Source of the DNA: Symbiodinium sp. CCMP2592
Lineage: Eukaryota > Sar > Dinophyceae > Suessiales > Symbiodiniaceae
Assembly: GCA_905221615.1 (NCBI GenBank)
Contig: CAJNDT010002890.1
Location: 1-64,000 of the forward strand
Direction of reading: 5' to 3'
DNA: 64,000 bases
Notes under the pieces: model-generated
Seen by the model: the letters and a program-made list of their open reading frames with translations, nothing else
Database searches by the model: none
What the model was told of the DNA's origin: nothing
Translations under genes and position numbers: made by a program
In this document: piece after piece, positions 2,071 through 17,816 of the stretch
How the letters are laid out: each line of letters starts with the position of its first letter
How positions within the stretch are numbered: the first letter of the stretch is position 1

Positions 2071-2244
2071 GGCATTATGGAGGGTAGGGTTTAGGGTTTG
2101 CTGGTGGGATGCATGGTCTGGGGTGGAGATTGTACTTCATCCTGAACCGAGCGCCCAAAACCATGCTCGGCTTCCCGCAGTTATTTTGCAGGCTGTCGGG
2201 ATTGATTGCATCCGAAGTTGGTTCAAGCGCCGCGAGCTCTGCGA

Positions 2245-2514
2245 TCAGGGCGGAGGGTCGCCAGCAAGGGAACAGGCCACATCGCTGGGTTCCAGCACAT
2301 CTAGGAGGGCCGTCAAGTGCCCCCTTTCGGGTGTGCGGGGGGCCATCACCCGCACCGTGTCCGTGTTCTGTCTTACTGACAGCAATGTTGCCGCCTCGCA
2401 TGCAAGCACATAGGGCTTCAGCAAGAACTGTTTTTTGTACTCGTTGTCTTCCATCGTCTTGAGCATTCGCAGTGCCCCAGTCCAGCATGCAAAGTCTGTC
2501 ATGGCCATTATCAC
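2245..2514 (-). CDS. candidate exon, host gene
   Basis: A minus-strand open frame of about 89 codons with natural composition (MAMTDFACWTGALRMLK, KQFLLKPYVLACEAATLL, TPERGHLTALLDVLEP). Possible acceptor at 'cattcttag' and GC donor after 'cttgctg'. A longer ORF in another minus frame (2,075-2,575) overlaps but is Gly/His-rich and less natural. No domain was recognised. Confidence 0.45.
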   Translation of the reverse strand: MIMAMTDFACWTGALRMLKTMEDNEYKKQFLLKPYVLACEAATLLSVRQNTDTVRVMAPRTPERGHLTALLDVLEPSDVACSLAGDPPP

Positions 2515-2519
2515 TAAGA

Positions 2520-3574
2520 ATGGCTGTCAAGCCTGTTGAGTTGTGGCAGTGGTGACATTGATAGCTGATAATCATGTTGCTGTTGATGCTAGTCTGCTAG
2601 AGTTAAACTTCATGACCGCGGCTACGAGGATGCTTCAGGGGCTTTTGGGGGCTACGGTGTGGAGATTCGGAAAATGTCGAGAGCTTCGGCTTCAGGGATT
2701 GCGGATGAAGCTTAGTGTGCTTTGGGGGTCCGCATCATGTTCCCAAGTTCTAGAACACTAAACCTGCAGGCCCTCCCTTAGAGCCCAAGACATCCAGAAT
2801 GCCACCCTACACCCTTTTCCTTCGACCTCTGAAACCCCGAGACCCGAAAAAGTGAATCACCCTAAGTCGCGAATTTCCAAAACCCTGCACCCCAAAACCC
2901 TCCACAACCTGCCAAAGCCTGAATCCGGCAACCTGGAACCCCCCCTCAAAAAAACACACCCCGGCCGGCCTCAGCCGACAGCAGCGTGAAGGCCAGAAAG
3001 CAAGGGAGAAAAGACATGAATCCGAAGAGTCGATTTCGACCCGAAGTCCGCAGAGAAAAGAAGAAGACAACAAGACCAGCTCAACAATAGCTGAATAGTA
3101 ATAACTGACTTGCTTATAGACTGTAGTAGGGCCCTATAAAGTGGACTTCGGGAAGGACTCCCCGAGGTCGTTTGCTGAAACGGAGGGTTTCGGTAGAGCA
3201 AAGACGGCTGCAATGGCGCAGGTCGGCGGTTTGGGGTTTAAGATTTAGGGCTCAGGGTATAAGGTTTAGGGGAGACCTGACAAAGTATAGTCCTGACATT
3301 CAGGGTTCCGGGCATCTGCACTGCAGCGGATAATACGACAAGCCGCAAGCCATTCACCCACAGGCCTAAACACCAAGGCCGGAAACCCTGCAACCCTCAA
3401 GCCCTAAATCCTGAACTCCTAAACACCCCACCTGTGGCCCACATGATTTGCGCTTTAAGGGAAGCCTCACCAACCTAACCCTAAATCCCAAACCCAAGAA
3501 GGCAACTATCAGGAACAGGATCTGGGTTTTAGTGCTCCAGAACACATGAAACATGCGAACTACTGAGTAAGTAC
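2520..3574. other. noncoding, telomere-like filler
   Basis: CCCTAAA-like sequence and GC-rich spacer. A short minus-strand stretch near 3,150-3,195 after 'ttcag' (ANDLGESFPKSTL) could be a mini-exon but has no clear donor. Confidence 0.45.
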
Positions 3575-3665
3575 TCAAGAGGCGAGCGGAATCGGCGTGC
3601 GGATGCTGTCTGCCGGATGTAACGGCAGCCGTTGTATGCTGTGCTCCCAAACGCAATGGGTTTAG
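3575..3665 (-). CDS. candidate exon, 91 nt
   Basis: Acceptor 'ttttcag', then an open frame reading KPIAFGSTAYNGCRYIRQ and on to RFRSPL, then donor GTACTT. It is embedded in telomere-like filler, which makes the natural amino-acid composition stand out. Function unknown; it may continue the gene whose exons lie right of the retrotransposon. Confidence 0.5.
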
Positions 3666-4173
3666 CTGAAAACTCAAAATGCTTTCTTGTTCAGGACTGG
3701 AGCCAGAAAAAGGCACTCTGTGCGGGGTAGGGTGTAGGGGAATCAGACCTCCACAAAACCCAAGACCAAGCGCTTGAAATTTTAGGAACATGGATTTGAG
3801 TCATAACACGAGGACCCATGGGAACTAACACTGCGCGTATGGAATTTCATTCGCAGTCCTTGGACTCACATAAGAAGCCATTTCGCTCCAAAGAGTATTC
3901 CTTGAAGTCACAGTAACAGTCACGTCTCTTCTCAATTCAAGTGCTATCCAATAACGACATCCCAAATAAGTAACCTGTAAACCCTTGAAAAGCCGTGTTG
4001 AAGCTTCCAGACAAGCCCGTTAACAGCTTGTTGGGTATTGGGTAGTACCGGGCTTTCAACAGGGTCCTGCATGGTTTTTACATTCATAAACCTATTCTGG
4101 TGCTCATATAAGTGCGCTTCTTGAAAGTGGGGGGTCCCTGCATAGCATCTCTGCGAGAGGACGGCCTCATCAC

Positions 4174-4209
4174 CATGCAGTAGCGTTGGAAGTTGATCCG
4201 GCTGGCACC
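4174..4209 (-). CDS. candidate mini-exon
   Basis: Acceptor 'cttgcag' and donor GTGATG bracket an open frame reading CQPDQLPTLLH. The frame stays open to 3,944 (95 codons in total), so a longer coding segment is the alternative. Confidence 0.35.
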
Positions 4210-4448
4210 CTGCAAGACGGGCAATGGTCATTCGGAACCTCCTTGAATTCTTTTAAGGCTTCCTTTACGTTAAGAGTTCCTTCAAGAGATCCTTTAAGGA
4301 TTCCTTCATTGGTTCCTTGAGGGTTCACTTTCTGGGTGGAAGGGGAAAGGGGCAGCCCTATTCAACCCTCATTAGGCTCATCAGGGGTTACCCCCCTTCC
4401 GTTACGGCCCTTACCCCTAAGGGTCCTTATTTTCTTATCAACTGGGAT

Positions 4449-4601
4449 CTATAGAATACACCAAAACCGTTAAGCCATGAGCGAGACTACGGCTCTTTTA
4501 ACTCAGAGGGCTTGGGCACGAACGTCACGGTATAGTATACACAACATGATGACTGTACACGACCATACAAACTCCTACGCAAGCTGCGATGCAAAACTAC
4601 A
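4449..4601 (-). repeat. 3' LTR
   Basis: 153 bp, matching 17,664-17,816 at all but one base (a at 4,581 versus t at 17,795). On the minus strand it begins TGTAGTTTTGC, with the usual TG start. The other end (TATTCTATAG) lacks the usual CA, so that boundary may be off by a few bases. Confidence 0.95.
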
Positions 4602-4613
4602 CCCCCCTCACCT
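4602..4613 (-). other. polypurine tract
   Basis: On the minus strand AGGTGAGGGGGG directly abuts the TG start of the 3' LTR, the expected position and composition of a plus-strand primer tract. Confidence 0.85.
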
Positions 4614-4923
4614 AAAGGCACGGTCACTGCATCCAAAAACACAGCATACCTTCGCCTGCAGGTGGAAGAGCGCTTCGGCTCGGAGTTTGACGATCGGCGT
4701 GGAGTTGCCTCCCGCGTCATCAGTTCAGCAAAAGTACATGTGACTATCGTGTGCCTCGAGGAAGGGTGCGAAAAACTACATGCAAGCTTTTCTTCAAATG
4801 CAAGACGCTGGTTTCAGCGTGGAGCAAGGATGATAGGAGTTCGCCGCACAGCCACTTGAAAAATATCATAGGCCGGGTGAACATCCCTCTTGCTCGAAAG
4901 AATCAGACTACTGGGTCGGCTTA
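4614..4923 (-). other. retrotransposon 3' untranslated region
   Basis: About 310 bases between the pol stop and the polypurine tract. No conserved coding frame was seen; it presumably serves as 3' UTR of the genomic RNA. Confidence 0.6.
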
Positions 4924-7900
4924 TCAGTTCCAACGCCATCCGCGATTGCGCCACTCACGCCAGTTCTGGTTGTCCCAGTTCTGGCCGCTCCATGTTCCCC
5001 AGGATGACGAAGACCAATTCTGCCACCAGGATTGATTATCCCAGTCCCAGTCGCGGTTGGTGCGATCGGCGGCCTCGGCGTTAGCCGGGCTTTTGCCTTT
5101 TCCCTTCTCTGCTGCTCGGGCATATGTAGAGCCCTTGCCACCATCTGGCGGATGCTGCTGGGCATACTTCGGCTGGGCAGCACGACTTTGATTGGCCTTT
5201 TTGATGGTTTCATCAACCGTCTCCACCATGAAGGGTAGGTCCTTTGCCAAAACGGTCTGCAGGTCCGTACCCACTGCAGCGGGATCGTAGTTGAGGAAAT
5301 CCACCTTGCCGTGGCCAAAAGTCTGTAGACGGATGCCCCCCTTTTGCCTGGCGATGTTGTGAGCGAAATCTTGGAACGAAAGGATGGCTCCGTACCATGT
5401 AAATGCTACTGGCGTATCCTCCGGCGTGGACGTTAGTCCCGCTGCGCACAACTTACCGCCAATGCCATCGTCTCCGGTAAAGAAAATGATACGACACTCT
5501 GGAACCTCGTCCGTGCGGGTCTGGTGCGTGGAACTCGCCGCTCTGGAGGATCCAATAGCCAGCATGCGTTGCGATCGAGTGCGGCCAGGGTTCGGAAGGT
5601 AGGCGAAGCAGAGGCAGTCGAGGGCACGGATCGTTCTGCGTGTGTATCCCTCTTTGGCCATTGAAATTGCGTATTCATTGTCATGATTGAACCTCGCCAC
5701 GCAATCAGTGTAGCCCTTTTTCATGGCTCTCTGCTTTGCCACTTTGGCTTTCCGAATAACCTCGCCTTCTAAGGAGTTCATGCCACGGCCGGCGACATCT
5801 TTCGATGCGCTTTGAAGGCTTGGCCTCACTCCCACGCGTTCAGCGGCATCACCCATCTCCTGAAGCAGAGCTTCACGCCCACGTGCCAACAGCGTCCGTC
5901 TGCCCTGTGCCTTCAATTGACCTGGTCGAACTGGCCCTCCGCATTGAGAGCAAATCCTTTGGCCTTGAAGACACTCAGCTTTGCAGTGGTAGCATTTGAT
6001 TTTCTCCAAAAACGCGGCGGATGGCTTGGTCTCACTACCAGCATAAAGTACTGGTTCTGGCCTTCCCACCGGCTCCTGGATTGCTTCGACTGGTGTACCC
6101 TCAGCATCCAGCGTCACCGTTGTCGCCATTCCGTCACCGATGTACACAGTCCTGATTGGAGGACCCGGCTGTGCAATGATGGTGCCTGGTTCAACAAGCG
6201 GCCTCTCCTCTACGGAGGGCATTTGCTCATCATCAGGAGCTTCATCGTCGTCAGCCTTTGCAGGGGCATCGGTGATGGCCAACGATCCCTCAAGCACATC
6301 AGCGACATCTGGAATGGGCGGTAGGGATGTTTCCTCAGCTGGAAGGGTACCATGTTCTTCATCAATAGGCGGTGCGAAATTGTCCTGAGTCGTCTCCTCA
6401 GCCTCGGGTTCATCAAGAACAATATCGATGCCGGCCTCAGCGTTAGCTGGGCTTTCACCTTGTTCCGCCTCATCAGGAGGGACAGCGCCTCCCGCACGGG
6501 ACCAAAGTACGACATCGCGTTGCGTGTCATTGATGAACAAGATGGTCGAGCCGGGCACTGCCTCGGAGCACAGTATGCCATCAGACTCCGTAAGGAATAG
6601 GTCGCAACCAGCTTCGAGGACCTCCCGGGTGTCAAAGACGATCTCAATTGGTGCGCTTGCACGGAGTCCTGAACGTGCCTTTTGCTCTTCGAGCGGCAGC
6701 GGCGCAAAATAACAATGCGCCTTCTCAGAACCTCCAAAACCAGGCAACAAACGATCTTCCAGAATCGCATACGCCGCATCATGTGTTGTTCGATGATAGA
6801 GTCTGGGCGGCGCCTTATCAATCGGGATCAACGGCCTGCCCTCTCGGGCGGCATTAGCCAGCTCTTCAGAACGCTGCAGTGTAAGATATGCCTTTGCAAT
6901 AGAGGCATTGTCGAGCTGCAGATTGCTGGAGTGGCCTTGCGTACAACCGACGTAGACCGGAAAAGCCGGTTGGCCAATTGCATCGGCAGCACTGTCCATT
7001 GGTCCGCGAAACATAAGGCGCTGTTTGTTGTCGGTGGCGATCATGTCGAGGAGGCTTCCTAAACCGATGTCGCTTCCAGGTCTGCATCGATTAGCAACCT
7101 CAAGCACTTCCATGGCTAGTACCCATGGCCCGCTCCACGATCGCATTTTAAATTGATTACCCTTGTTTTCGAAGTTGCCCCTGATCAGTCCAGTGACAAA
7201 TGTGACCATCTTGTGGTCACATCTGGGGTAGTGTAGGCCTGGCGTCATGTCTTTTTGGAACACTTCGATGTACTGGTCGGCCTCCTCTTGCGAGGGGCAT
7301 TCGTTCCAGTAATCATACAGGGTAATGCCAGTCATCTCGGCGAAGTCGTAGGTGTCATTCAGGAACCTCATTCCGCGCGATCCCTGCACTGCGAGCTTGG
7401 TCAATCGCTGCTTGTCGGCCTCAGCCTTTGCGAGGCGAGCTCTTTTTGCAGCGTGCTCGGTGCCAGAGTCGCCAGACAGAATGCCTCCACCATAAATGGA
7501 TGCGTCGATCGGCATTGGTCGAATATCGCCAGAAGACGAAGCCGCAGTACTCGCCGGGGTAACGGCCTCCACCTTAGGTGGGGCTTTGTTCCATTCCGGC
7601 GAATTGATCTCCTCTTCTGTTGCGAAAACACCGGGCGCGACGCTGATGACATTCTGAATCTTCATCTCCTTGAGGATGTCGGGGACCTCAGGCGCAGGCA
7701 GTTCGGCGTGACTTTCGTCACGCTTCTCCTCCCAGTATGCGTCGTCCCACGGATCCTCCTCCGTTGGCTCCGCCTTGACCTGCTTGCTTCTCGTCATCCT
7801 CGCAAGAGCCGCTTGCAGGACATGGTTATCCACTGCGTAGCGACCACGGGAATCAAAATAATTTTCAGCAAGCAGTGATTGGAAAGCGGCTTCGCCCATT

Positions 7901-10900
7901 TTCGCTATCGCTCTGGAGGCGTAGCGCTCGGCGATCTCGATCTGCATGATGTGGGCTAAACCCGAAACCATCTTGCGGCGGGATTCGCTGTCCTCGCGGA
8001 AATGGACGTTGTCATTATAGAGCGCCAAATCTCCAAGGAAGGGGTGGATGTCACAGGCGGCGAGTCCTCTACGGACCGCTTCGTCCTTGAATCGCGCAAT
8101 GCATTCATCGAACTGCTTTGGCAACCCGTAGACGAAGCTGCGAATTCCTGTGCAGATCACAATGGACCCCACATATGGAGAACGGCGCTGCAGGTCTGCA
8201 AGCGCTTCAAGGTTTTGGCAAACTCTCCGACAGATCTTTTGCCAATCTCCGCGGGCCTCTATGGGCGATTGATGGTCCCACCACGTCGGGACGCCGGGGC
8301 TGCAAAATATCCCGTATCTGCCGACGATCTCATTCGCCATCCAGACAATCTGCACGTCCACCAGCAACTCTTGGTCGCCAGAGTAGCGCAGAGCCGTCTG
8401 GTCACAGCGGATCTGAGCCCTCTCCCGAAGTTCGGACAATGTTTTGCCCCACAGGGGTTCGTAAATTATCTCCCTGTATTGCAGATAGACCCCCGAGCTC
8501 GCTGCCTTCAAATCCGAGGAAAGGTCCGTCCTCGTTCTCTTGCCAGCAACGAAAACAGTCGTAGAGTCGGAGAGGAGGATGAGCACCCGCTTTCGGCCTC
8601 GATTTTCATCGGGCTTTAGTTGCGACATGCCAGACTGCGTCAGTGCTGCCACTCGGTTGAGCCCAGGATATCGATCCGTTTCAAAGCAGTTGTGAGCAGC
8701 CACTTGCACCGGCATGTACTGAAAAAGTGCTCGCAACTCTCCTTCGTCAATCGACTCTTGGAAGCCTATCGACTCGTGACTGATGACGGCCGCCCAAAGC
8801 TGGCGGCCCCAAAAATCGGCCACCTGCTCTTCGTAGGTCGCCATCGCTCTTCTACTCTCAGCTGCTACCACGGGACTAGGACCCGGCCTCAGCGTTAGCT
8901 GGGCTTTAGTTGTACAATAAAGCGATGACCAAGCTGCGCATGCCAATCCTTCATGTACCTTAGGTCCATCATTATCCTTAGTGGTATGCACTTGCCAATC
9001 AGCATGCAATACCGAAACCTTGGTTTTCGATGTCCTTAGTCGTCCACAGTCCTGGGTAGCTTCGAGCAGCAGCCGCTTCAATCGAAAAGACGATGCAAAC
9101 GTAAGCGAACCGCTCTTGTGCTTCTCAAGACCGAAATCGTGTACCAACTTCACAACAGCAGGCAAACACCACATCGGATTGTTGGTCGATGCTTCCAGCA
9201 GGAGGTGAGGCCTAAGTCGTTTAGTTAATCGGCATAACGACATCAACGATTTCAGACATTTGTTCCATTCGTGGTCCGGCAGCGATGCAAAGTAGAGAAT
9301 CGGTTTAGTGCTTCCCCCCTCGTCGCAGAGGGCACGAAGATTGTTAGCGATTTTTGACATAGCTTTCGGATTCATGGTTTCAAGTTTGTTCGGGACAGGG
9401 ATAACACGACAGGAATCATTTCCTGACAAGGTGGTTTCACTAGCGTTCCCAAAGTCAAGCAAAACCCTGCGAAAGTCCATCGGCCTCGGCGCGAGCCGGG
9501 CGTCTGCAGGAGCGGCCGCCGCAGACCCGAGCCTAAAGCCGTGTTTGTTGAGGGTTTCAAGATCAGTTGTGGAAAGCTTGGGAAAACCACGAGAGGTATA
9601 CGCGGTGATAGAAAAACGTTTTCCAGTATAAGGCAACACGCAGTGTTTCTTGGCTGGGTCAAAGACAAAAGGTTTGCAATGGGTGTCATGCACATCCCCT
9701 TTGATGGAACGTCCTTGAGCGTCTTTCTGGAACTGCGCCTTAGTATCCGAAACAGTCTGATCTTCAACCCACAATCCACCTCCTTTGTGGTCACCAAAGC
9801 TAACCATCAGGTTCTTAGAACCCTTTAAGTTATGGGAATCAGCATGAACCTTTGCCATGTTGTCCTTGCTAATCACCACTGAGGTCCATGTGAAACCTGA
9901 GTCGGGAGAATGAGCTTTCACGAACTCATTCAAGTACCTGGCAACTGCGGGATACCTAGTAGTGCTTCTGGTAACACCTTGCATTCCACCGTGTGTCCAA
10001 GTTCCGTACACTTGATAATAGCCTTGTTTCTTTGATGCAATGCGAGGTCGCTTGGATTTCCTAGCTGTATGATTTGATGCAATCTCTTCACACAACCTTT
10101 CCAAAGCATCACAGCCGTACTCCTTCAGGCGGGAAAGTTCTGAAGCAACCATTTCAACCTCCTGAATGGCAGCAGCTGCTTTAGCACGTTTGCCTTGAAC
10201 CTCGTGTGGTGTAGGAGAGCGGCCTGGCTTTTCAGCCGGCTTCGCATTCTGCGCATCAGGTACATGATTGATGAGCCTAAGCGCGTGTTCCCACTTACCA
10301 CGTTCAGCAAACGGTTTTGTGAAGATGTCTGCGACCTGTTCTTTGGTATCAACATTGATCATGTTGAAATGGCCCTTTTCGAACTGTTGCTTCATCCATG
10401 CAAACGAAAGTCGTTGCGTCCTATCGGTGTGACGAAGCTTTTCACTGTCACCTTTCGCAATGATGGTGATTGTAGCTTGGTTATCTTCTAAGAACTGAAC
10501 CTGAAACTTTTCAGAAAGATGAACATCCAAGCCATTTATATCCGCGACCGAGCGTCCTTCATGACTGAGTTCACCATACCTGATTGCATCAAGCTCCGGG
10601 TCAATCCTTGCAACGATTGTTTCCGTGACTTTAGGTGATTCCGCCGGCGGCCTGGTCTTTCGACCGGCTGCATTAGCGGTAACCTCTCCCCAAAGGTAAC
10701 ACCACAAGCTTAAGCTAGGCAGGCCTTGTGCTCTGATGCCGTGATTCGCTGAAACTACTTCACTTTCGGTGCTAGACGTCGTGATGCTGGTCTGTTTCTT
10801 TGAAAAAGCATTCAACGGGTAGTAAGTGTTGGGCCCAACCAAGAACAGTGCGCATCCTGATGTGGACTTGGAATCAAATTCTCCTGCCCAATCGGCGTCC

Positions 10901-13900
10901 CAGAAGAGCCACAACTTACAGTCCGAAATCTTATCGCCAATAAAACCCTGCATCGTGATGTCCAAGCTCGAATTAATGTAGCAGATCAGCCGATGTAAAC
11001 CGACATCGCAGTCTCTTGACCACTTCGTGACCCTAGAAGCGAGCGACTGGGTACACCGAAGTAAGTCCCACCTTGCCATTCTTGCTGCAAACAATACCTT
11101 CATGAGGACCCGACTGGCAATCGGTTGCAACCTCCCCTGGGGTTCGTTGCCTTCCACAGGTTTGGCTACTCTGTTCTCATGAAACGGCGTAGCTGCAAAC
11201 TTCAGGGAATCACGTGAAACTTTAGCTAATTCACAGTACTTGTCGACACAGGAGACCAGGAAGTCCTTCATGTCATACGTCACAACGTTGACAGGGTTAG
11301 TCATAGCGGGGACGGGTTCCTTGATGATCGTATCAGTGCTCTTAAATCTAGACTGCTTAGCTTCGCGCTTAGCGTCTGATTTGCTTCTCATCGGCCTGCC
11401 TTTTCGGGCGGCAGCAGCGAGCTTAAAGTCGTCTGCCGTCGTTGGCATGATAGAGAAGATTGTTTTGCCCGTCCACCACTCGTTTCGCCTAGCAGGGCCC
11501 TCATGATTGGAATCATCCTGTATCTGATCTCCATTCTCAAACTCTGTTATGCGTTCAGTTCCCAGAGTGGGAAACTGTCTCATGTCGTCTTCACTTGGTA
11601 CGTACAAACGCTTTCTGGGGTACCTGTGATGTCTGATTGCAAGCGCAGCATCCGGATCAACCTCCCAATAATCTTCTGTTCTACTCGGCCTGGAGTTTCT
11701 TCCGGCTGCTGGTGCTGCAATTTTCTTATCGAAGACATAAGCAAAAGGATGTGCGCTGCGGTCAAGCATAACACCGTTCTGCTCTCGATGATTGCAACCA
11801 AAGTATCTCCCAAAAGGTTCCGAAGGATCCATATCCAATACCTTCCCAATCCCCTCCCATCCCTTAGCAAGATTGTCCTTTGGTCCTGCCATTTTGAAAT
11901 CGTCGACGTAGACGACGAGGAGGAGATCTAATTCCGGATGGTAAAAGATACTTTGCCATATATCTGGAAGAACCGGGATCCACCCTATGCTCTTCAACTG
12001 AGTAGTGCAGTGTCGTTCCCAGATGCCGCCGCTGTCAGGATGTCCATACAGAGCGAGTCTGAGAGGACAAACTGGGTCGCGAAAGTTGCGCCACTCGGGC
12101 GGTCGACGATTCTTGGGAAGTCGAACCCAAGTCGCAATCCCTTTGAACAAAGCTTGAGTATACGCTTGTCGAGCATCAGCTTGCTGTTTTGCATAGCCTG
12201 GTTGGCTTCCGAACACATCGATGATTTTACCCGCTTCCATACTTGCAGGGCTAGAACCCAGTTCGGCGAAGATCGCGTGATCCGCATTTTCATCTCGAAC
12301 CTGGTTCCCCTGGAACACAGAACGTCCCTTGTAGTACTTAAGCGGGTTGCCATCCTGCAACTCGGAACCCTTAAGGCTGCAAATCTCGAACACGTTCCCG
12401 AAGTGAGCCTTTTCGCCTTTTGCCTTGGTTTCAGACAAGACGTCGTCGTACTCACGAACCTGTTTCTCAAGCCAACACCCTTTATCAAGAAGTTTCTTCC
12501 ATTCTTTGTCCATAGCAGCCTGAGCCTCAGGGTATCTGGCCACATCATTCTGATTGATAAGCTTGGCAACCATAGCGAAAAGATCCTCGCAAGTTTCCTC
12601 TAGCTTACCCAGAAATAAACCGTGCAACCTTTCCCCATCCTCAGGCGTCCTCGGTCGATGAGGTTCTCGATGTCCAAGGAGAACAGGCATAGCGGGAGCT
12701 TCTTTCTCACGTTCTTCTTTTAACCTAGCTTCCTCCCGCGCAACCTTCTTTTCCCATCGTTCGATTTCCTCTTTTCGTTGTTGTGCGGAATACATGTGCC
12801 AGAATTCGGACGGGACATCAGGAGGTCTTTTGGAGCCTTTCTTGTTCCTCACAAGTCTAACCCCATCCCAATTGTAACCAGCAGGAACCGGTCTACCATC
12901 AGGATATTTCGTGGGGTCAAACAGATCACCTTTGGAACTAGACGATGGCTCTCTGGGCCTAGGCGCGGCCTCACCTTTCGGTGGGCTTTGATCGTCATCG
13001 GGTTCGGGTTCGGATAAGCCGATTTCATCAAGAAGTTCGCCTGCCTCACGAAGTCCCCGTTCCTTTTCTTCATCTGAAGCATGAATGTTCTGATCATCCA
13101 ACAGTGGAACCTCGTGTGCCTCGCGATCCTTGATCCTTCCCGATTGAAGTGGGAACTCAAAACTCCCCTCAATCAATTCAACGCGCTTAGCCCTGATGAC
13201 CTTGAGGTTTCCGTCCTCAATGGCAAACTGTGCGTCTTTCACGGGTGCAATCAAATACTCCTTCTTCCAAACAAACCCTGGTTGGATATGGTATCCCAGG
13301 AAGATCCCTTCAACCCCAGTTGACGAAAACTTGGAAGTCTCCGGAACGTTCTGTTTAGGGTTATGCCAATACAAGACCTTAGCTCCGAAAGGAACAATCA
13401 ATCCCGCAAAGGACTCCCCAAAGCGTGCCTCCCATGGGATTTCACCAGTATCCACTCGTTTTGTGAGATTGAGCGCAATGGAGTGGTGCTGAGCTGCTAA
13501 AGGCCAAAACCGTTCTGGAAGACCGGCTTGCTCCAAGTTCGAGCGCGTACCCTCTAGTACGGTGCGGATTTCCCGTTCGATGACGGCTTTAGTTTCATCC
13601 ACGTACTCTCTAGAGGTGTTGTGCCTACATCGGAGTTCCTTCACAGCTGCTCCTAACTCCGGCGCGTTGTCAGAGTAGATAACCCCAACTTCGTCTTGCG
13701 TACCGAAAAAGTGCAGAAGGTCCTCATGCACTTGTTCCGTTGATTTTGTTGCGCTAGGATACACATACCTAAATTGCGAAAACACATCTTTGATAACAAG
13801 CGCCACCCTCTCATCCTGAAATCCAAAGTCCCTCAGATCTCTTGTCACGAGATGATCAATGGTAACATGATCCCCATACTTTTCACTGTGTATGGTCGAA

Positions 13901-13902
13901 GA
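4924..13902 (-). CDS. pol: copia pol with long C-terminal extension
   Basis: This frame is open from about 13,950 to a stop at 4,924; residue numbers count from 13,950 (GTG, not a real start). It should be entered by -1 frameshift at 13,902-13,908. Order: integrase core (D32, D94, E125), an SH3-like strand after it (PFGAKVLYWHNP, FLGY), reverse transcriptase with YVDD at 681-684, RNase H (DAD 1018-1020, TESE 1061-1064, EDNQ 1155-1158). After RNase H: 2OG-oxygenase-like 1300-1455, an unrecognised stretch 1490-1780, SGNH-like 1785-2005, a second unrecognised stretch 2010-2375, KptA-like 2380-2475, acidic linker 2490-2580, zinc ribbon 2653-2670, Trp/Asn-rich tail 2965-3008. Ordinary copia pol ends at RNase H. 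No stop interrupts about 3,000 codons, so the extension is under selection or very young. Confidence 0.92.
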   Translation of the reverse strand, partial: SSTIHSEKYGDHVTIDHLVTRDLRDFGFQDERVALVIKDVFSQFRYVYPSATKSTEQVHEDLLHFFGTQDEVGVIYSDNAPELGAAVKELRCRHNTSREYVDETKAVIEREIRTVLEGTRSNLEQAGLPERFWPLAAQHHSIALNLTKRVDTGEIPWEARFGESFAGLIVPFGAKVLYWHNPKQNVPETSKFSSTGVEGIFLGYHIQPGFVWKKEYLIAPVKDAQFAIEDGNLKVIRAKRVELIEGSFEFPLQSGRIKDREAHEVPLLDDQNIHASDEEKERGLREAGELLDEIGLSEPEPDDDQSPPKGEAAPRPREPSSSSKGDLFDPTKYPDGRPVPAGYNWDGVRLVRNKKGSKRPPDVPSEFWHMYSAQQRKEEIERWEKKVAREEARLKEEREKEAPAMPVLLGHREPHRPRTPEDGERLHGLFLGKLEETCEDLFAMVAKLINQNDVARYPEAQAAMDKEWKKLLDKGCWLEKQVREYDDVLSETKAKGEKAHFGNVFEICSLKGSELQDGNPLKYYKGRSVFQGNQVRDENADHAIFAELGSSPASMEAGKIIDVFGSQPGYAKQQADARQAYTQALFKGIATWVRLPKNRRPPEWRNFRDPVCPLRLALYGHPDSGGIWERHCTTQLKSIGWIPVLPDIWQSIFYHPELDLLLVVYVDDFKMAGPKDNLAKGWEGIGKVLDMDPSEPFGRYFGCNHREQNGVMLDRSAHPFAYVFDKKIAAPAAGRNSRPSRTEDYWEVDPDAALAIRHHRYPRKRLYVPSEDDMRQFPTLGTERITEFENGDQIQDDSNHEGPARRNEWWTGKTIFSIMPTTADDFKLAAAARKGRPMRSKSDAKREAKQSRFKSTDTIIKEPVPAMTNPVNVVTYDMKDFLVSCVDKYCELAKVSRDSLKFAATPFHENRVAKPVEGNEPQGRLQPIASRVLMKVLFAARMARWDLLRCTQSLASRVTKWSRDCDVGLHRLICYINSSLDITMQGFIGDKISDCKLWLFWDADWAGEFDSKSTSGCALFLVGPNTYYPLNAFSKKQTSITTSSTESEVVSANHGIRAQGLPSLSLWCYLWGEVTANAAGRKTRPPAESPKVTETIVARIDPELDAIRYGELSHEGRSVADINGLDVHLSEKFQVQFLEDNQATITIIAKGDSEKLRHTDRTQRLSFAWMKQQFEKGHFNMINVDTKEQVADIFTKPFAERGKWEHALRLINHVPDAQNAKPAEKPGRSPTPHEVQGKRAKAAAAIQEVEMVASELSRLKEYGCDALERLCEEIASNHTARKSKRPRIASKKQGYYQVYGTWTHGGMQGVTRSTTRYPAVARYLNEFVKAHSPDSGFTWTSVVISKDNMAKVHADSHNLKGSKNLMVSFGDHKGGGLWVEDQTVSDTKAQFQKDAQGRSIKGDVHDTHCKPFVFDPAKKHCVLPYTGKRFSITAYTSRGFPKLSTTDLETLNKHGFRLGSAAAAPADARLAPRPMDFRRVLLDFGNASETTLSGNDSCRVIPVPNKLETMNPKAMSKIANNLRALCDEGGSTKPILYFASLPDHEWNKCLKSLMSLCRLTKRLRPHLLLEASTNNPMWCLPAVVKLVHDFGLEKHKSGSLTFASSFRLKRLLLEATQDCGRLRTSKTKVSVLHADWQVHTTKDNDGPKVHEGLACAAWSSLYCTTKAQLTLRPGPSPVVAAESRRAMATYEEQVADFWGRQLWAAVISHESIGFQESIDEGELRALFQYMPVQVAAHNCFETDRYPGLNRVAALTQSGMSQLKPDENRGRKRVLILLSDSTTVFVAGKRTRTDLSSDLKAASSGVYLQYREIIYEPLWGKTLSELRERAQIRCDQTALRYSGDQELLVDVQIVWMANEIVGRYGIFCSPGVPTWWDHQSPIEARGDWQKICRRVCQNLEALADLQRRSPYVGSIVICTGIRSFVYGLPKQFDECIARFKDEAVRRGLAACDIHPFLGDLALYNDNVHFREDSESRRKMVSGLAHIMQIEIAERYASRAIAKMGEAAFQSLLAENYFDSRGRYAVDNHVLQAALARMTRSKQVKAEPTEEDPWDDAYWEEKRDESHAELPAPEVPDILKEMKIQNVISVAPGVFATEEEINSPEWNKAPPKVEAVTPASTAASSSGDIRPMPIDASIYGGGILSGDSGTEHAAKRARLAKAEADKQRLTKLAVQGSRGMRFLNDTYDFAEMTGITLYDYWNECPSQEEADQYIEVFQKDMTPGLHYPRCDHKMVTFVTGLIRGNFENKGNQFKMRSWSGPWVLAMEVLEVANRCRPGSDIGLGSLLDMIATDNKQRLMFRGPMDSAADAIGQPAFPVYVGCTQGHSSNLQLDNASIAKAYLTLQRSEELANAAREGRPLIPIDKAPPRLYHRTTHDAAYAILEDRLLPGFGGSEKAHCYFAPLPLEEQKARSGLRASAPIEIVFDTREVLEAGCDLFLTESDGILCSEAVPGSTILFINDTQRDVVLWSRAGGAVPPDEAEQGESPANAEAGIDIVLDEPEAEETTQDNFAPPIDEEHGTLPAEETSLPPIPDVADVLEGSLAITDAPAKADDDEAPDDEQMPSVEERPLVEPGTIIAQPGPPIRTVYIGDGMATTVTLDAEGTPVEAIQEPVGRPEPVLYAGSETKPSAAFLEKIKCYHCKAECLQGQRICSQCGGPVRPGQLKAQGRRTLLARGREALLQEMGDAAERVGVRPSLQSASKDVAGRGMNSLEGEVIRKAKVAKQRAMKKGYTDCVARFNHDNEYAISMAKEGYTRRTIRALDCLCFAYLPNPGRTRSQRMLAIGSSRAASSTHQTRTDEVPECRIIFFTGDDGIGGKLCAAGLTSTPEDTPVAFTWYGAILSFQDFAHNIARQKGGIRLQTFGHGKVDFLNYDPAAVGTDLQTVLAKDLPFMVETVDETIKKANQSRAAQPKYAQQHPPDGGKGSTYARAAEKGKGKSPANAEAADRTNRDWDWDNQSWWQNWSSSSWGTWSGQNWDNQNWREWRNRGWRWN
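5070..5090 (-). repeat. hairpin cassette 1
   Basis: Plus-strand form: CGGCC, bulged T, inner helix CGGC/GCCG, loop GTTA, GGC. Read as SPANAEA in pol. Same helix position as cassette 2, with a compensated G-C to A-T change. Confidence 0.85.
5935..6003 (-). other. zinc ribbon in pol extension
   Basis: Pol residues 2653-2670 show CYHC followed by CSQC, i.e. C-x2-C-x10-C-x2-C, the usual zinc-ribbon spacing. It sits between the acidic linker and the C-terminal Trp-rich region. Nucleic-acid binding is an inference. Confidence 0.7.
6199..6220 (-). repeat. hairpin cassette 13
   Basis: CGGCC, T, CTCC/GGAG, 5-nt loop TCTAC, GGC. Read as MPSVEERPL in pol, in a different frame from cassettes 1 and 2. 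Confidence 0.75.
6432..6452 (-). repeat. hairpin cassette 2
   Basis: CGGCC, T, CAGC/GCTG, loop GTTA, GGC. Read as SPANAEA. Nucleotide-identical to cassette 3, which is read in another frame. Confidence 0.87.
6526..6813 (-). other. KptA/Tpt1-like 2'-phosphotransferase segment of pol
   Basis: Pol residues 2380-2475 contain, in order, LYHRT (family LYHGT), an AHCYFA strand (family VHLS), SGLRASAPIEIVFD (family G-x-R-x-G-x-P then a hydrophobic strand) and FLTESDGIL...AVPGSTI (family S-x-N/D-G-V-L-T...V-P). This is the motif order of the ADP-ribosyltransferase-fold KptA/Tpt1 family, which removes 2'-phosphates from RNA using NAD+. Some positions differ from the family consensus, so activity is uncertain. 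Confidence 0.72.
6832..6852 (-). repeat. hairpin cassette 8
   Basis: CGGCC, T, GCCC/GGGC, loop TCTC (GAGA in mRNA), GGC. Read as AAREGRPL. Near twin of cassette 7, which has GCCT/GGGC with a wobble at the same position. Confidence 0.85.
7278..7298 (-). repeat. hairpin cassette 14
   Basis: CGGCC, T, CCTC/GAGG, loop TTGC (GCAA in mRNA, a GNRA tetraloop), GGC. Read as ECPSQEEADQ. Confidence 0.8.
7563..7584 (-). repeat. hairpin cassette 15
   Basis: CGGCC, T, CCACC/GGTGG with a 3-nt loop (or 4 bp with a 5-nt loop), GGC. Read as KAPPKVEAV. Confidence 0.78.
7936..8598 (-). other. SGNH/GDSL-like hydrolase segment of pol
   Basis: Pol residues 1785-2005. RVLILLSDST follows a predicted beta strand and resembles block I (GDS), with S1796 as candidate nucleophile. 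DNVHF at 1980-1984 matches the block V D-x-x-H that supplies Asp and His. Spacing of about 185 residues fits an SGNH domain. The Gly and Asn blocks were not assigned with confidence. Confidence 0.5.
8594..8614 (-). repeat. hairpin cassette 16
   Basis: CGGCC, T, CGAT/ATCG, loop TTTC (GAAA in mRNA), GGC. Read as LKPDENRGRK, just upstream of the SGNH-like segment. Confidence 0.85.
8787..8807 (-). repeat. possible diverged hairpin cassette
   Basis: CGGCC at left and GGC at right pair over 21 nt, but the inner helix (GCCCA against TGGC) carries a displaced bulge. It may be a decayed copy or a chance palindrome. Confidence 0.35.
8884..8904 (-). repeat. hairpin cassette 3
   Basis: CGGCC, T, CAGC/GCTG, loop GTTA, GGC: the same 21 nt as cassette 2 but read as AQLTLRPG because the frame differs. 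Confidence 0.87.
9481..9501 (-). repeat. hairpin cassette 4
   Basis: CGGCC, T, CGGC/GCCG, loop GCGA, GGC. Read as ARLAPRP, directly after the 2OG-like segment. Confidence 0.85.
9586..10053 (-). other. 2OG-Fe(II) oxygenase-like segment of pol
   Basis: Pol residues 1300-1455. HAD at 1369-1371 fits the HxD iron ligands. After a GGGLWVED strand and a KPFVFDP turn, H1436 (KKHCVLP) is followed nine residues later by R1445 in GKRFSITAY. This matches the distal His ... Gly-x-Arg-x-Ser pattern of prolyl-4-hydroxylase/AlkB-type oxygenases, where the Arg binds 2-oxoglutarate. The substrate is unknown. Confidence 0.65.
10220..10240 (-). repeat. hairpin cassette 10
   Basis: CGGCC, T, GGCT/AGCC, loop TTTC (GAAA in mRNA), GGC. 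Read as KPAEKPGRS, exactly at the end of the RNase H domain. Confidence 0.87.
10381..10923 (-). other. RNase H domain of pol
   Basis: Pol residues 1010-1200. LFWDADWAG, TSSTESEVV, FLEDNQATI and HTDRTQRLSFAW are the four landmark blocks of copia-type RNase H, with the expected acidic residues. Between blocks two and three lies an insert that contains cassette 6. Confidence 0.9.
10648..10668 (-). repeat. hairpin cassette 6
   Basis: CGGCC, T, GGTC/GACC, loop TTTC (GAAA in mRNA), GGC. Read as AAGRKTRPP inside an insert of RNase H. Confidence 0.87.
11392..11412 (-). repeat. hairpin cassette 7
   Basis: CGGCC, T, GCCT/GGGC (one T-G wobble), loop TTTC, GGC. Read as AARKGRPM. Confidence 0.82.
11686..11706 (-). 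repeat. hairpin cassette 9
   Basis: CGGCC, T, GGAG/TTCC (one wobble), loop TTTC, GGC. Read as AAGRNSRPS after the reverse transcriptase core. Confidence 0.8.
11791..12633 (-). other. reverse transcriptase domain of pol
   Basis: Pol residues 440-720. The copia-type RT opens with KEWKKLLDKGCW and GRSVFQGNQVRDENADHA. The catalytic VVYVDDFKMAG box is at 679-689 and is followed by RYFGCNH. The fold is contiguous and uninterrupted. Confidence 0.95.
12966..12986 (-). repeat. hairpin cassette 11
   Basis: CGGCC, T, CACC/GGTG, loop TTTC (GAAA in mRNA), GGC. Read as SPPKGEAAP in the linker between integrase and RT. Confidence 0.87.
13411..13893 (-). other. integrase catalytic core of pol
   Basis: Pol residues 20-180. 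TIDHLVTRD, IYSDNAPEL and KAVIEREIRT supply the D,D,E triad. The zinc-binding part lies upstream in a different frame (13,902-14,452). Confidence 0.9.
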
Positions 13903-13908
13903 CCCCCC
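13902..13908 (-). promoter_or_regulatory. putative -1 frameshift site 2 (G GGG GGT)
   Basis: In the middle frame the codons read AAG GGG GGT, so G_GGG_GGT is an X_XXY_YYZ heptamer. A -1 slip makes the next codon TCT, exactly the pol frame. Without a slip the middle frame stops 19 codons later at 13,845. A one-base error or indel in the G6 run is the alternative. Confidence 0.6.
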
Positions 13909-14452
13909 TTTCTTCGAGCTTGGGGAGATAGCATCTTCGCCTTTTGGCACACTTTGCAGAATGGGTTCTTAGGACGATGGCAGAATTGATGATGGATGCT
14001 TTCGGCCTCGGCGCGAAGCCGGGCTTCTTGCGAGATTTCCTTTCCCTCATCTTCTTCCTTGTCACTATCGGGCTCGATTAAGGGGTCGTCCTCGGGTCTT
14101 TTGAAAGCAGTAATCGACAGAATTGGCGATCCATCAATCTTTTGATTTTTAACCCTTAGACTTCTGATGTCAACAGAATCCTCAATCTTGCTCCAAGCAG
14201 AGTCCTTGTAGATCCAAGTGGTCCTTAGCACGAACCTTGGATGACGAGGTGCAGGTACTCGCAAAGCCTTTGGCCGATGACCAATAATGATCTTTGATGC
14301 GGCAATTTCACTGCTAGTGATCCAACCTGGCTTGGCTAAATCTTTAGGCTTGATTGCAATTGGCGGTGCAGCATTGATTGCTTCTTCTATCTCGGAGTCG
14401 CTGTGGACGACTCTTTCATCCCCGGCCGGTCCTCTCGGACGGCTTTCTACTG
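13902..14452 (-). CDS. middle frame: linker plus integrase zinc-binding domain
   Basis: This frame opens at 14,489 and overlaps the gag end. It carries an acidic linker and then IHHQFCHRPKNPFCKVCQKAK, the H-H-C-C zinc-binding module of retroviral-type integrases. The matching catalytic core continues in the next frame. It has no ATG near its start and is joined to gag and pol by in-phase slippery sites, so it is best read as the middle of a gag-pol fusion. Cassettes 5 and 12 lie in it. Confidence 0.8.
14003..14024 (-). repeat. hairpin cassette 5
   Basis: CGGCC, T, CGGC/GCCG, 5-nt loop GCGAA, GGC. Read as ARLRAEAE just before the integrase zinc finger. Confidence 0.8.
14423..14443 (-). repeat. 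hairpin cassette 12 (candidate frameshift stimulator)
   Basis: CGGCC, bulged G instead of T, GTCC/GGAC, loop TCTC (GAGA tetraloop in mRNA), GGC. In the mRNA the 7-bp bulged stem begins 9 nt after the slippery heptamer at 14,453-14,459, the usual distance for a -1 stimulatory structure. Confidence 0.85.
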
Positions 14453-17400
14453 GAAACCCGAAGATTCGTCCTCCGCAGGTGCCGCCAGTTCAACCTTGAC
14501 TGTACCGGCGTTAAACACCTGAGTTCCAGCAGATTTCTGGGAATCATCAGCGCTTGCTGGGCTCGCTACCGAGTCATCATTTGAGATCACTGGGACTCTA
14601 CCCTTCATCTTACACTTGATGACTTTACCATCGGGAGCTATAAAGTATGGAACCTTGCCCGCAGGCCAATGGAAATCATATCCATCGTCCATGCATCTTC
14701 TCCCAACAGAACAAACCGGTGGCGTGCTTTCCAGTAGATAGCACTCAATGTTTTGCTTCAGTTCAGGCATCGGGATGTTGGTTGACTTGATTCCCTGAAC
14801 TGGACCATTAGCTGTAATCAAGTTGACCGGCCTACTAGCGTTTTCGATGGGAGCCTCTGGGTAGTAGATAGAGTGATCGTGCCTACTGATCAGATCTTCT
14901 TCACTGCCAGTATCGGCGAGGAATTCTAATCCCGCATTAAAGCTAGAGCATGCTGTTCTTTCCACGCTAGAACACAGCTCGCACTTCAACACTGCAACTG
15001 GGATCTCACCCTCTTCGCAGTCATCTGTGCACTCGTACTCACAGTGGCTTTCAATCCCATTGAGCATACAGGACATGATCCTGGCAAGCTCGTTCGCTGT
15101 TCTTATGGCCGTGCTTAGGTCCTGAACTGGAGGCTTTGGGCAGCTTTCAGCATCCAAGTAACAAACTTCGAAAGTTCGCGGTTTGGTCCTATGCTTCTTA
15201 CCCTTACCATCCAATGGAATCTCCCGAATGCTTGGCTTCTCCTTGAACCTTAATTTCTTGAACGTTCCTGAAGCATCACCCTTAACGCCTTGCCCATTGG
15301 GCACAGCTGCCAGCGCATACGAAATGCAACAAGCTGCCGTGCGTCCGCCAGACTTTTCCTTGCTCTTGGACCTGCCCCTTTGTTTCTTTTCCTTCTTTGC
15401 TTTAGGATCCGGGGTCGGGCTCCTAGGCTTTTCATCGTTCTTCGCAGGGGCGGCCTGCTCAGTAGGAGCGGCGTCAGTTGGATTGGGCTTATCTTGATGC
15501 AGGAACCTACAGTCTTTGCCTTTGTTGCACTTGCCTTTCTTCCAAAAGGTGCAAATCGCGTTGATCTTCTTCTGAGGCGTTCGATGAGGACTTGGGGATC
15601 TTGACTTTGGTTTGTGGAGAAACTTACACTTGTCGCCTCTTGTGCATTTTCCTTTCTGGAAGTCGTAACAAACCTGTTGTGTTTTGGGACTCTGAGATCT
15701 AGGCGGTGTTCGTTGGCTCGATCCTTTGCTGCTTGTTCTGGATTTTGAGCTACTTCGGGACATGCTTCTTCCACGGCCTCCTCGTGAAGAGGGGCGACGT
15801 TCAGATCCGTACGCTGGGGCCCCGTATCTATCGCCATGCGACTTAGCGATGCGGTCACGGTTCTTACGCATCCGTTCTCTAGTTAGATGCTCCCTAATGG
15901 CATTGACGAGGAATTCATACGTGTGTACGGGGTTTCCTTCCTTTGCCCTGTCGTACAGCTGAAGATCGTACTTGATGTGGTGGGATTTCCGAATTTCCCT
16001 CAGCAAAATGTCCCTCAAGGTAACTTCATCCGGAACATGACTCATTCCAGCAATCACCGACTCGAAGTTGTAAAGGAAGGTAGCCAAGTCGTCCCCAACC
16101 AACTTCACTTTTAAAAGGTCTTCTACGCTATAGAGGCTTCCGACTTCTTCATTAGTCTTAAAGTGTTGATGAAACATCCACAATACTTGTCTTCCCCTGA
16201 CGGCACGTCCTCCTGTGGCCTCTGTTTCTTTGAAGTTTAGGACTTGCCTTGAAATCTCTCCTCTAGCGACTCTGGTAAGTGCAGCCAACAACTTCGTGTC
16301 CAATGTTAAGAATTTCCCAGTGTCATGTAAGGACTTGAGGGTAGCCTCTTTATCATATACTTCCTGCACCCAGCGAAATGCCTCATCCGGGCGATCGCTC
16401 GCAGCCCGCACAATCTCGCGGACCGAGATCCGCCACGATCGGTAGGTCTCTGGATTAGGGTAATCGGGAAGCTTGATACTTTCGGCTTCTTTCACCTTTG
16501 GTTTGCCCTCTTCACTTTCGGTCTTAGGGGTAAGCAAGCGTGCTGCCCTAATCAATGCCTCAGCTCCGAAATCAACATGTGGAACCCCTTCTGGGTCAAC
16601 AGTCGCCGGCTTCCCCGCTTGGGCAGCTTTAGGAGACTTTTCCTTTTGTGGCTCTCTGTTCTCAAACCCAGGTGGTACAGAAGTTCCTTGCGGAGGTTCC
16701 TGAGCTTGCGGCGTTCTTCCGAAGATGTCCTTCATATTCTCGGGAATCTCAAATGGATTTGAGAACGGGACAGCAGGATTAGGTCCTGGCTTCGGCGTGG
16801 CATATTGTTTGCCCGCTTCGTCCGCATTGGCTTCCATTCTTAGGGCTCGTTCTGCGGCAGCCAGTTCATCCTGCAGTCTGTCGTTTTGTGCACTCATTTC
16901 AGCGATTTCAGTAATGAAACGCCGTTCCATACTCGCTTCGGTTTCTTCAAGAACTTGTTTGAATCGCATTCCAAGAAAATCAAGATGTTGTGCTTTGTTG
17001 CGTTCGCTCTCAGCAATCAGAGTAGTTCTGAGCTTAGCGATTTCCGACTGATGTCGTTGTTGGAAAATTGATTCCAGAATGTTCATTTCATTCCTGCATG
17101 TTGCAACTTCGTTCAACAAAAACTTTTCCCTTTGGGATGCGTTGAACTCAAATTCCGCAAACTGTGCTTCGCATTCTGCCATCTTCACCTCATGAAGGCG
17201 CTCGGCCTGTTCAGCCATGCCAGCCATTCTCACAAGATTATCATGCGATTGTTGGTTCAGAATGCTTGCGTGTCTTCTTTCAGCATCTGCCTCCGTTCGC
17301 TCTATTGCCATTCTTTGTTGTTCGGCTGTTTCACCCTGGTTCACAACATTGTACAAGGTATACTGTACGTTTGAGATGTCGACCGTTGGATTTGAGACAA

Positions 17401-17599
17401 ATGGAGATAGGGTAGGACCCACTGGACCGAAGATCCTATCAAGTGCTTGGGATCCTGAGCTCGGTGCCGTAGGGCCCGCGCCAGCTGCTGTAAGTTGTTC
17501 ATCAAGCAGTCGATCTCTTGTTTCGTCGTCCATCTCGTCCGATGATACTTCGGTTGTTTCTCCCTTCTCAGTAGTGAGCAGAGAGGGCGAAGTGCTCAT
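14447..17599 (-). CDS. gag: gag polyprotein with CCCH fingers and protease
   Basis: About 1,050 codons from ATG 17,599 (MSTSPSLL; the frame is open slightly upstream but only from GTG) to TAG 14,447-14,449. An N-terminal coiled-coil-like region is rich in Glu/Gln/Ala, followed by a gag-like helical region and an Arg/Ser-rich basic stretch. Two C-x7-C-x5-C-x3-H fingers follow (CYDFQKGKC...CKFLH near 15,630-15,670 and CTFWKKGKC...CRFLH near 15,510-15,550), then an aspartic protease box LADTGSEEDLI near 14,920. CCCH fingers replace the usual CCHC knuckle. The protease lies at the gag end, just before the frameshift. Cassettes 17 and 18 are inside. Confidence 0.9.
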   Translation of the reverse strand: MSTSPSLLTTEKGETTEVSSDEMDDETRDRLLDEQLTAAGAGPTAPSSGSQALDRIFGPVGPTLSPFVSNPTVDISNVQYTLYNVVNQGETAEQQRMAIERTEADAERRHASILNQQSHDNLVRMAGMAEQAERLHEVKMAECEAQFAEFEFNASQREKFLLNEVATCRNEMNILESIFQQRHQSEIAKLRTTLIAESERNKAQHLDFLGMRFKQVLEETEASMERRFITEIAEMSAQNDRLQDELAAAERALRMEANADEAGKQYATPKPGPNPAVPFSNPFEIPENMKDIFGRTPQAQEPPQGTSVPPGFENREPQKEKSPKAAQAGKPATVDPEGVPHVDFGAEALIRAARLLTPKTESEEGKPKVKEAESIKLPDYPNPETYRSWRISVREIVRAASDRPDEAFRWVQEVYDKEATLKSLHDTGKFLTLDTKLLAALTRVARGEISRQVLNFKETEATGGRAVRGRQVLWMFHQHFKTNEEVGSLYSVEDLLKVKLVGDDLATFLYNFESVIAGMSHVPDEVTLRDILLREIRKSHHIKYDLQLYDRAKEGNPVHTYEFLVNAIREHLTRERMRKNRDRIAKSHGDRYGAPAYGSERRPSSRGGRGRSMSRSSSKSRTSSKGSSQRTPPRSQSPKTQQVCYDFQKGKCTRGDKCKFLHKPKSRSPSPHRTPQKKINAICTFWKKGKCNKGKDCRFLHQDKPNPTDAAPTEQAAPAKNDEKPRSPTPDPKAKKEKKQRGRSKSKEKSGGRTAACCISYALAAVPNGQGVKGDASGTFKKLRFKEKPSIREIPLDGKGKKHRTKPRTFEVCYLDAESCPKPPVQDLSTAIRTANELARIMSCMLNGIESHCEYECTDDCEEGEIPVAVLKCELCSSVERTACSSFNAGLEFLADTGSEEDLISRHDHSIYYPEAPIENASRPVNLITANGPVQGIKSTNIPMPELKQNIECYLLESTPPVCSVGRRCMDDGYDFHWPAGKVPYFIAPDGKVIKCKMKGRVPVISNDDSVASPASADDSQKSAGTQVFNAGTVKVELAAPAEDESSGFQ
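14453..14459 (-). promoter_or_regulatory. putative -1 frameshift site 1 (G GGT TTC)
   Basis: Gag codons read TCG GGT TTC CAG TAG, so G_GGT_TTC is a perfect X_XXY_YYZ heptamer one codon before the gag stop. A -1 slip enters the frame that carries the integrase zinc finger. L-A virus uses the related GGGUUUA. Cassette 12 forms a stem 9 nt downstream. Confidence 0.8.
15451..15472 (-). repeat. hairpin cassette 17
   Basis: CGGCC, T, GCTC/GAGC, 5-nt loop AGTAG, GGC. In gag, read as AAPTEQAAP just after the second CCCH finger. Confidence 0.8.
15774..15795 (-). repeat. hairpin cassette 18
   Basis: CGGCC, T, CCTC/GAGG, 5-nt loop GTGAA, GGC. In gag, read as RPSSRGGRG at the start of the Arg/Ser-rich stretch. 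Confidence 0.8.
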
Positions 17600-17650
17600 G
17601 TACCAATGTGAATACCAGTGTAAGAATACCACGGAGACAAAGTCAGCGAA

Positions 17651-17663: not shown

Positions 17664-17816
17664 CTATAGAATACACCAAAACCGTTAAGCCATGAGCGAG
17701 ACTACGGCTCTTTTAACTCAGAGGGCTTGGGCACGAACGTCACGGTATAGTATACACAACATGATGACTGTACACGACCATACAAACTCCTACGCTAGCT
17801 GCGATGCAAAACTACA
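17664..17816 (-). repeat. 5' LTR
   Basis: The upstream LTR in transcription direction, 152/153 identical to the copy at 4,449-4,601. It should contain the promoter; no convincing TATA element could be singled out. Confidence 0.95.

Follow-up and report, generated by a model that had tools for sequence, protein, structure and literature searches.

A candidate family-specific RNA recognition array of dispersed bulged hairpins in copia-like LTR retrotransposons of Symbiodinium

Our study reports on a set of short bulged hairpins dispersed along a 13.4-kb copia-like long terminal repeat (LTR) retrotransposon, which lies on the minus strand of a 64,000-nucleotide stretch (the window) of Symbiodinium sp. 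CCMP2592 (assembly GCA_905221615.1, contig CAJNDT010002890.1, positions 1 to 64,000). The hairpins display a strict architecture, a 7-bp stem interrupted on its 3' side by a single bulged base and capped by a small loop, and recur on the sense strand only in six examined element families of the same genome (I, II, III, V, VI and VII; 12-22 hairpins each), the window element belonging to family I. We propose, at a probability of about 0.5 on the sequence comparisons presented here, that they form a dispersed, family-specific multi-site RNA recognition array, or code, on the full-length RNA of this retrotransposon clade. A first-pass annotation of the same DNA had described 18 co-varying hairpin cassettes in gag-pol coding sequence, and read them either as an inserted miniature palindromic element or as a repeated RNA-binding signal; we judge the latter to be the best explanation.

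Results

In the mRNA sense the unit reads GCC-NNNN-loop-N'N'N'N'-A-GGCCG. A scan for its plus-strand form (CGGCC, 0-2 nt, an arm, a loop, the complementary arm and GGC) returned 18 places on the plus strand of the window, all inside 5070-15797, and none on the other strand; this agrees with the copy number, single orientation, varied arms and GNRA loops of the first-pass annotation, and with its tally of bulged bases (17 T and one G on the plus strand). A wider rule (GC-x-NNNN, a loop of 3-5, N'N'N'N', one bulge and x'-GCC, with all pairs Watson-Crick) finds 20 units in the element, none of them antisense, and none on either strand of the remaining 50.7 kb of the window; on 200 first-order Markov sequences the same rule finds a mean of 0.095 and a maximum of 1. 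The 20 consist of 16 of the 18 together with four units that have a GCG/CGC outer pair (4695-4715, 5422-5442, 5790-5810 and 8058-8079), so the supposed invariance of CGGCC and GGC does not hold, and the unit at 4695-4715 lies outside the limits drawn earlier. The remaining two of the 18 (11392 and 11686), earlier read as wobbles, carry A-C mismatches in the mRNA that occur in the window copy alone, with perfect pairs at these places in the other copies read. All three reading frames are used by the hairpins.

A covariance model made from 13 family I hairpins recovers the 18, with weak matches at 5790, 4162 and 7416. The last (7416-7436) shows GCC..AGGCCG with imperfect arms and is perhaps a decayed or nascent unit. 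A search of the element against Rfam, with E up to 1, gave no match at the gathering score and a sole sub-threshold match at 6333-6397, not on a hairpin; a known RNA family was rejected on this ground.

Comparison of copies highlights the constraint on these sites. Between copy C61 of family I and the window copy, 1018 of 11783 coding sites outside the hairpins differ, as against 3 of 339 hairpin sites outside the loops, a tally that includes the bulge and the CG next to the stem; at four-fold degenerate sites the changes number 0/73 in hairpins and 339/1674 outside (Fisher p = 1.6e-7). The loops differ at 5 of 85 sites, and all three changed four-base loops keep their class (GAAA to GAGA, GCAA to GAGA, TAAC to TGAC). 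Two family II copies, C99 and C2890, differ at 1 of 240 stem sites and 636 of 9108 sites outside, with four-fold changes of 0/47 in stems and 257/1362 outside (p = 1.4e-4), and at 2/16 bulges and 2/59 loop sites. As silent sites are frozen and every frame is used, conservation at the level of the peptide was rejected, in line with the earlier view that the fold is what is conserved.

Site homology between families I and II was taken from a pairwise nucleotide alignment in which 22 family I units were followed. This superseded a six-way codon alignment with too many gaps, in which family I kept 4 to 9 ungapped sites in each pair and the other families fewer; 2 of 9 such sites were fully paired from I to II. 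Three of the 22 units are gapped; seven of the 19 ungapped are fully paired (7/7) in family II, where nine pairs show compensated changes and no pair is broken; 7/7 pairing is found in 0.1% of random ungapped windows. The co-variation of the arms is upheld, and the test preset against it, run on the relatives, did not reduce the sites to ordinary conserved codons without covariation beyond chance. At 11392 the outer pair is swapped in family II from GCC/GGC to GCT/AGC, the change on the 5' side being silent, and at 6832 a family VI hairpin stands in the same alignment column. In the protein alignment several hairpins are crossed with no gap, most clearly 11392, 6832 and 8058, and these units are thus overlaid on existing codons. 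Insertion of cassettes was rejected for these sites and is not supported as a general account; units in length-variable linkers could be insertions. It is the fold that evolution protects and not its sequence, and this suggests that the hairpin is a repeated tag read on the element RNA.

Loop identity was examined in 62 perfect stems with four-base loops, chosen regardless of loop from families I, V, VI and VII. These comprise 33 GNRA, 22 TNRC, one TNRA, no GNRC and six other loops, so that 55/62 are GNRA or UNRC in RNA terms; the antisense control gave seven stems, all classed as other. Passages of PMC12550061 describe GNRA and UMAC loops as sharing one fold. Against 100 synonymous-codon shuffles per part of each open reading frame (ORF), families I, III, V, VI and VII have 12, 11, 12, 17 and 16 GNRA/TNRC units, with shuffle means of 0.20, 0.11, 0.15, 0.14 and 0.23; family II has 1 (mean 0.02) and family IV has 0 (mean 0.02). 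With the rule relaxed to 3-5 nt loops of every kind and to both bulge types, the counts for families I to VII are 23, 19, 19, 0, 20, 21 and 24, the shuffle means 3.4, 4.0, 3.6, 1.8, 3.5, 4.7 and 4.4, and the highest single shuffle 16. Units with a single mismatch comprise 15 G-U, 7 A-C (two of them the private ones of the window copy) and 18 other.

The wider rule finds 22 units in family II (L036+L037) and 14 in family III (L038+L039), 13 of these with the bulge one position lower, and none antisense in either. Families V, VI and VII (L043-L045, 10 kb each) have 14, 15 and 12 units with GNRA or TNRC loops and none antisense; here the lower three stem pairs vary too. Many stem-loops with a shared recognition motif, as expected of dispersed packaging signals, are thus present in all six families. 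In family IV (L042), bulged hairpins of all kinds are no more numerous than expected (12 on the sense strand, 12 on the antisense strand; Markov expectation 11.2), and hairpin units are absent, even when a further 6 kb upstream is included. No GNRA/TNRC unit occurs in ten control loci (30 kb) or in the window beyond the element. The earlier statement that none occurs outside the element therefore stands for the remainder of the window (50.7 kb) and fails for the genome, where other families carry the motif. In a midpoint-rooted tree of the reverse transcriptases (RTs), in which several forks are weak, all six hairpin families belong to a single group (support 82/90) that leaves out family IV. 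Family IV has two CCCH fingers and no hairpins, so fingers alone do not predict hairpins, and paired fingers were rejected as their sole correlate.

The families differ in dialect, each with a characteristic flank, loop and bulge. A C stands just before the stem in 14/14 units of family V and 16/16 of family VI, and just after it in 12/12 of family VII; for families I-III the search rule itself demands a C after the stem. In family II, CA or TA precedes 21 of 22 units. The bulge is separated from the loop by 4 bp, and by 5 bp in family III. Such uniform differences between families suggest one co-evolving reader per family.

Pattern searches extended the picture across the genome (1.098 Gb, 5383 contigs). 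AAAGCC-N12-AGGCCG has 772 matches and its reverse 200; the family I pattern GCCNNNNGNRANNNNAGGCCG has 1235, and 223 reversed. Among the first 100 of the 1235, 82 are fully paired, one has 3/4 arm pairs and 17 have two or fewer. The 82 belong to family I copies (62), family V copies (4) and a further repeated set (16), and among the first 100 matches we saw no spread into unique host sequence. The further set, "VIII", seen in these pattern matches, has the same hairpin architecture, with arms such as GGGA, GGGC and GACC.

At the gag-pol junction we looked for an XXXYYYZ heptamer in the gag frame, a 5-9 nt spacer, a stem-loop and pol in the -1 frame. This layout is present in families I (copy C106; L027+L028), II and III, where the heptamers GGGTTTC, GGGTTTT and GGGTTTT, respectively, are each followed by a 9-nt spacer and an array hairpin; pol is open there in the -1 frame and overlaps gag by about 40-60 nt. 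The open pol frame of the window copy begins only further downstream of the junction. The junction unit of families I-III has the layout of a putative -1 frameshift stimulator. Heptamers stand 4-11 nt upstream of 2/20 units in family I, 1/22 in II, 2/14 in III and 0/41 in V-VII, a rarity that led us to reject a frameshift site at every hairpin.

The host element has paired LTRs (153 bp, 99% identical) and an RVT_2-type RT, both as expected of a copia-like LTR retrotransposon. The RVT_2 search scored above cutoff in families III, IV, V and VI and below it in VII, and gave no match in the window pol ORF itself; the window-element RT is 53-62% identical to those of families III-VII. Integrase, RT and RNase H of the pol ORF were assigned by reading its translation, and the Tpt1/KptA domain by Pfam. 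With 127 of 1991 candidates scored, the RT has at least 70 places in the genome at 97-100% identity and at least 57 at 71-72%, the latter being family II. Some protein relatives belong to Symbiodinium microadriaticum and S. natans; among viral contigs three stretches matched and none was confirmed as a relative.

The Tpt1/KptA RNA 2'-phosphotransferase domain sits within the polyprotein (pol ORF residues 2276-2462). Considered as a correlate of the hairpins in a scan of all families but II, it is present in families I, III and VII, sub-threshold in V, and not seen in the scanned parts of IV and VI; many relatives have it too. Relatives also have a DNA cytosine methyltransferase (PF00145; e.g. 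P0092, P0094, P0097, P0116) or dUTPase (PF00692; P0084, P0099, P0108) domain beside a copia-like RT. Family VI has one long reading frame, and some V and VII matches lie inside open frames of more than 4600 residues; the family V copy L043 has two overlapping pol frames (1-6615 and 6255-9998), with sub-threshold 2OG-Fe(II) oxygenase and Tpt1 matches.

Table 1. Features of the family I element in the window, and places of the set VIII matches elsewhere in the genome. Full units are written in the mRNA sense. UTR, untranslated region.
Feature	Position	Strand	Arm	Loop	Remarks
3' LTR	4449..4601	-			153 bp, direct repeat of 17664-17816, 99% identical
Hairpin	4695..4715	-			GCG GGAG GCAA CTCC A CGC CG; 3' UTR
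pol ORF	4924..13950	-			3008 aa; copia-like integrase/RT/RNase H, Tpt1/KptA domain
Hairpin	5070..5090	-	CGGC	TAAC	
Hairpin	5422..5442	-			GCG GGAC TAAC GTCC A CGC CG
Hairpin	5790..5810	-			GCG CATC GAAA GATG T CGC CG
Hairpin	6199..6220	-	CTCC	GTAGA	
Hairpin	6432..6452	-	CAGC	TAAC	
Hairpin	6832..6852	-	GCCC	GAGA	kept in register in family II
Hairpin	7278..7298	-	CCTC	GCAA	
Hairpin	7563..7584	-	CCAC(C)	CTAAG or CTAAG-derived TAA triloop	
Bulgeless relative	7704..7723	-			GCG TGAC GAAA GTCA CGC CG
Hairpin	8058..8079	-			GCG GTCC GTAGA GGAC T CGC CG
Hairpin	8594..8614	-	CGAT	GAAA	family II and III hairpins in same alignment column
Hairpin	8884..8904	-	CAGC	TAAC	
Hairpin	9481..9501	-	CGGC	TCGC	
Hairpin	10220..10240	-	GGCT	GAAA	
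Hairpin	10648..10668	-	GGTC	GAAA	family II and III hairpins in same alignment column
Hairpin	11392..11412	-	GCCC	GAAA	private A-C mismatch in arm
Hairpin	11686..11706	-	GGAA	GAAA	private A-C mismatch in arm
Hairpin	12966..12986	-	CACC	GAAA	
Hairpin	14003..14024	-	CGGC	TTCGC	
Hairpin	14423..14443	-	GTCC	GAGA	bulge C; gag-pol junction
gag-like ORF	14447..17632	-			1061 aa; two CCCH zinc fingers and arginine/serine-rich (R/S-rich) stretch
Slippery heptamer	14453..14459	-			GGGTTTC; 9 nt before hairpin 14423-14443
Hairpin	15451..15472	-	GCTC	CTACT	
Hairpin	15774..15795	-	CCTC	TTCAC	
5' LTR	17664..17816	-			153 bp, pair of 4449-4601
Set VIII	C100:85173-86957				
Set VIII	C109:256100-256711				
Set VIII	C114:1356781-1357392				
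Set VIII	C137:259346-266987				
Set VIII	C147, C202				

Discussion

Our data suggest a model in which the unit, a 7-bp stem with a 3' bulge and mostly a GNRA or UNRC tetraloop, would act as a recognition module whose fold is kept by selection as the letters of its arms drift through compensated changes. One trans-acting reader per family would bind these sites, most likely the element's own Gag, with its R/S-rich stretch and two CCCH fingers, or another element protein; binding may select, condense or package the element RNA in the manner of the dispersed packaging signals of RNA viruses, and the junction unit of families I-III may double, by its layout, as a -1 frameshift stimulator. The sense-only enrichment, far above the Markov, synonymous-shuffle and antisense controls, and the presence of one unit in the 3' UTR support recognition on the RNA, and both a role in packaging and a reader protein are probable on this comparative evidence. 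Several observations weigh against the model. Sites turn over between families I and II, and 12 of the 19 ungapped family I units are not hairpins in family II (1-5 of 7 paired). Family II loops fall mostly outside the GNRA/UNRC classes (1/16 within), and taking UNGC loops as GNRA-like goes beyond the cited UMAC case. Local folding with 150-nt flanks favours the stem (mean probability >0.8) in 13/22 family I and 8/15 family VI units. The CCCH fingers of the hairpin-free family IV count against the model as well, as does the sampling of one or two copies per family from a single genome.

Foremost among the alternatives, and still unlikely, is a host RNA-binding protein that reads the hairpins for export, stability or localisation, or to hide the RNA from silencing. 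Passages of PMC12550061 present GNRA-like hairpins as protein targets, and many sites would presumably allow strong cooperative binding; however, the dialects differ among families that share one nucleus, so a family-specific reader fits better than a single host reader. Sense-only and mostly coding units could also act on translation, slowing or redirecting ribosomes, either by stimulating frameshifts or by making them pause between the domains of this very long polyprotein, and the GGGTTTY heptamer, spacer and array hairpin ahead of the -1 pol frame in families I, II and III are consistent with this. As an account of the whole array it is improbable, given the few units with a heptamer nearby and the unit in the 3' UTR, and a pause requires no specific loop class, bulge or flank.

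At the DNA level, too, the arms are palindromes, and they could form a hairpin or cruciform in the cDNA for integrase or another DNA-binding protein; this is very unlikely, as the loop rule (G..A or U..C ends) suits loops of the sense-strand RNA and G-U outnumbers A-C among the single mismatches. We give least credence to the view that the units are mobile miniature palindromes, inserted in the element and of no use to it. RPE/REP-like palindromic insertions are short palindromes within genes, and the gain and loss of sites between families and the identical cores of two family II units recall them, but in our elements several sites are not insertions, replacement is compensated in place, silent sites are strongly constrained, the units keep one orientation and are restricted to the elements as far as seen, and their arms are not homologous between copies.

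A multi-site recognition array on element RNA has its closest counterparts in single-stranded RNA viruses and the pregenome of hepatitis B virus (HBV). In the material covered in PMC6281560, the packaging signals of MS2, satellite tobacco necrosis virus (STNV), parechovirus and the HBV pregenome are many stem-loops in coding RNA that share a recognition motif, a common loop or bulge feature, and vary in the rest, including their stems; the present array differs in its host, an LTR retrotransposon clade, in its strict geometry, dialects and silent-site constraint, and in being known from sequence alone. The boxB RNA of lambdoid phages has GNRA-like and UMAC (UAAC) loops that are read by a peptide (PMC12550061, in part), whereas our units are dispersed in many copies, have a 3' bulge and lie in retrotransposon protein-coding sequence. 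For Ty1 and Ty3, whose genomic RNA is recognised by Gag, passages of PMC4974528 state that the Gag sites are not precisely defined and that scattered sites are suspected; a repeated hairpin motif is not described in those passages. The likeness to -1 programmed frameshift signals (heptamer, 9-nt spacer and stem-loop at the gag-pol overlap) is confined to one unit and to families I-III. In a literature search with most subscription papers and all bioRxiv preprints outside its scope, we found among the papers listed none on hairpins in dinoflagellate, Symbiodinium or Symbiodiniaceae retrotransposons, and none on dispersed packaging signals in retrotransposons.

Even in yeast, according to the same passages of PMC4974528, the way in which LTR retrotransposons choose the RNA that they package is not well defined. 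Here, comparison alone exposes a repeated RNA module with a simple grammar of stem, bulge, loop class and flank, kept across families whose RTs are about 54% identical. More tentatively, the private hairpin dialect of each family within one nucleus, read by a co-evolving element-encoded protein, might be an ancient modular address code that tells self from non-self RNA, in which case each family would package its own RNA and not that of its neighbours. If the reader protein were found, the families would supply orthogonal RNA-protein pairs from nature and allow dispersed packaging signals to be tested directly outside viruses. They would then also be a strong example of RNA structure that constrains silent codon positions across thousands of codons.

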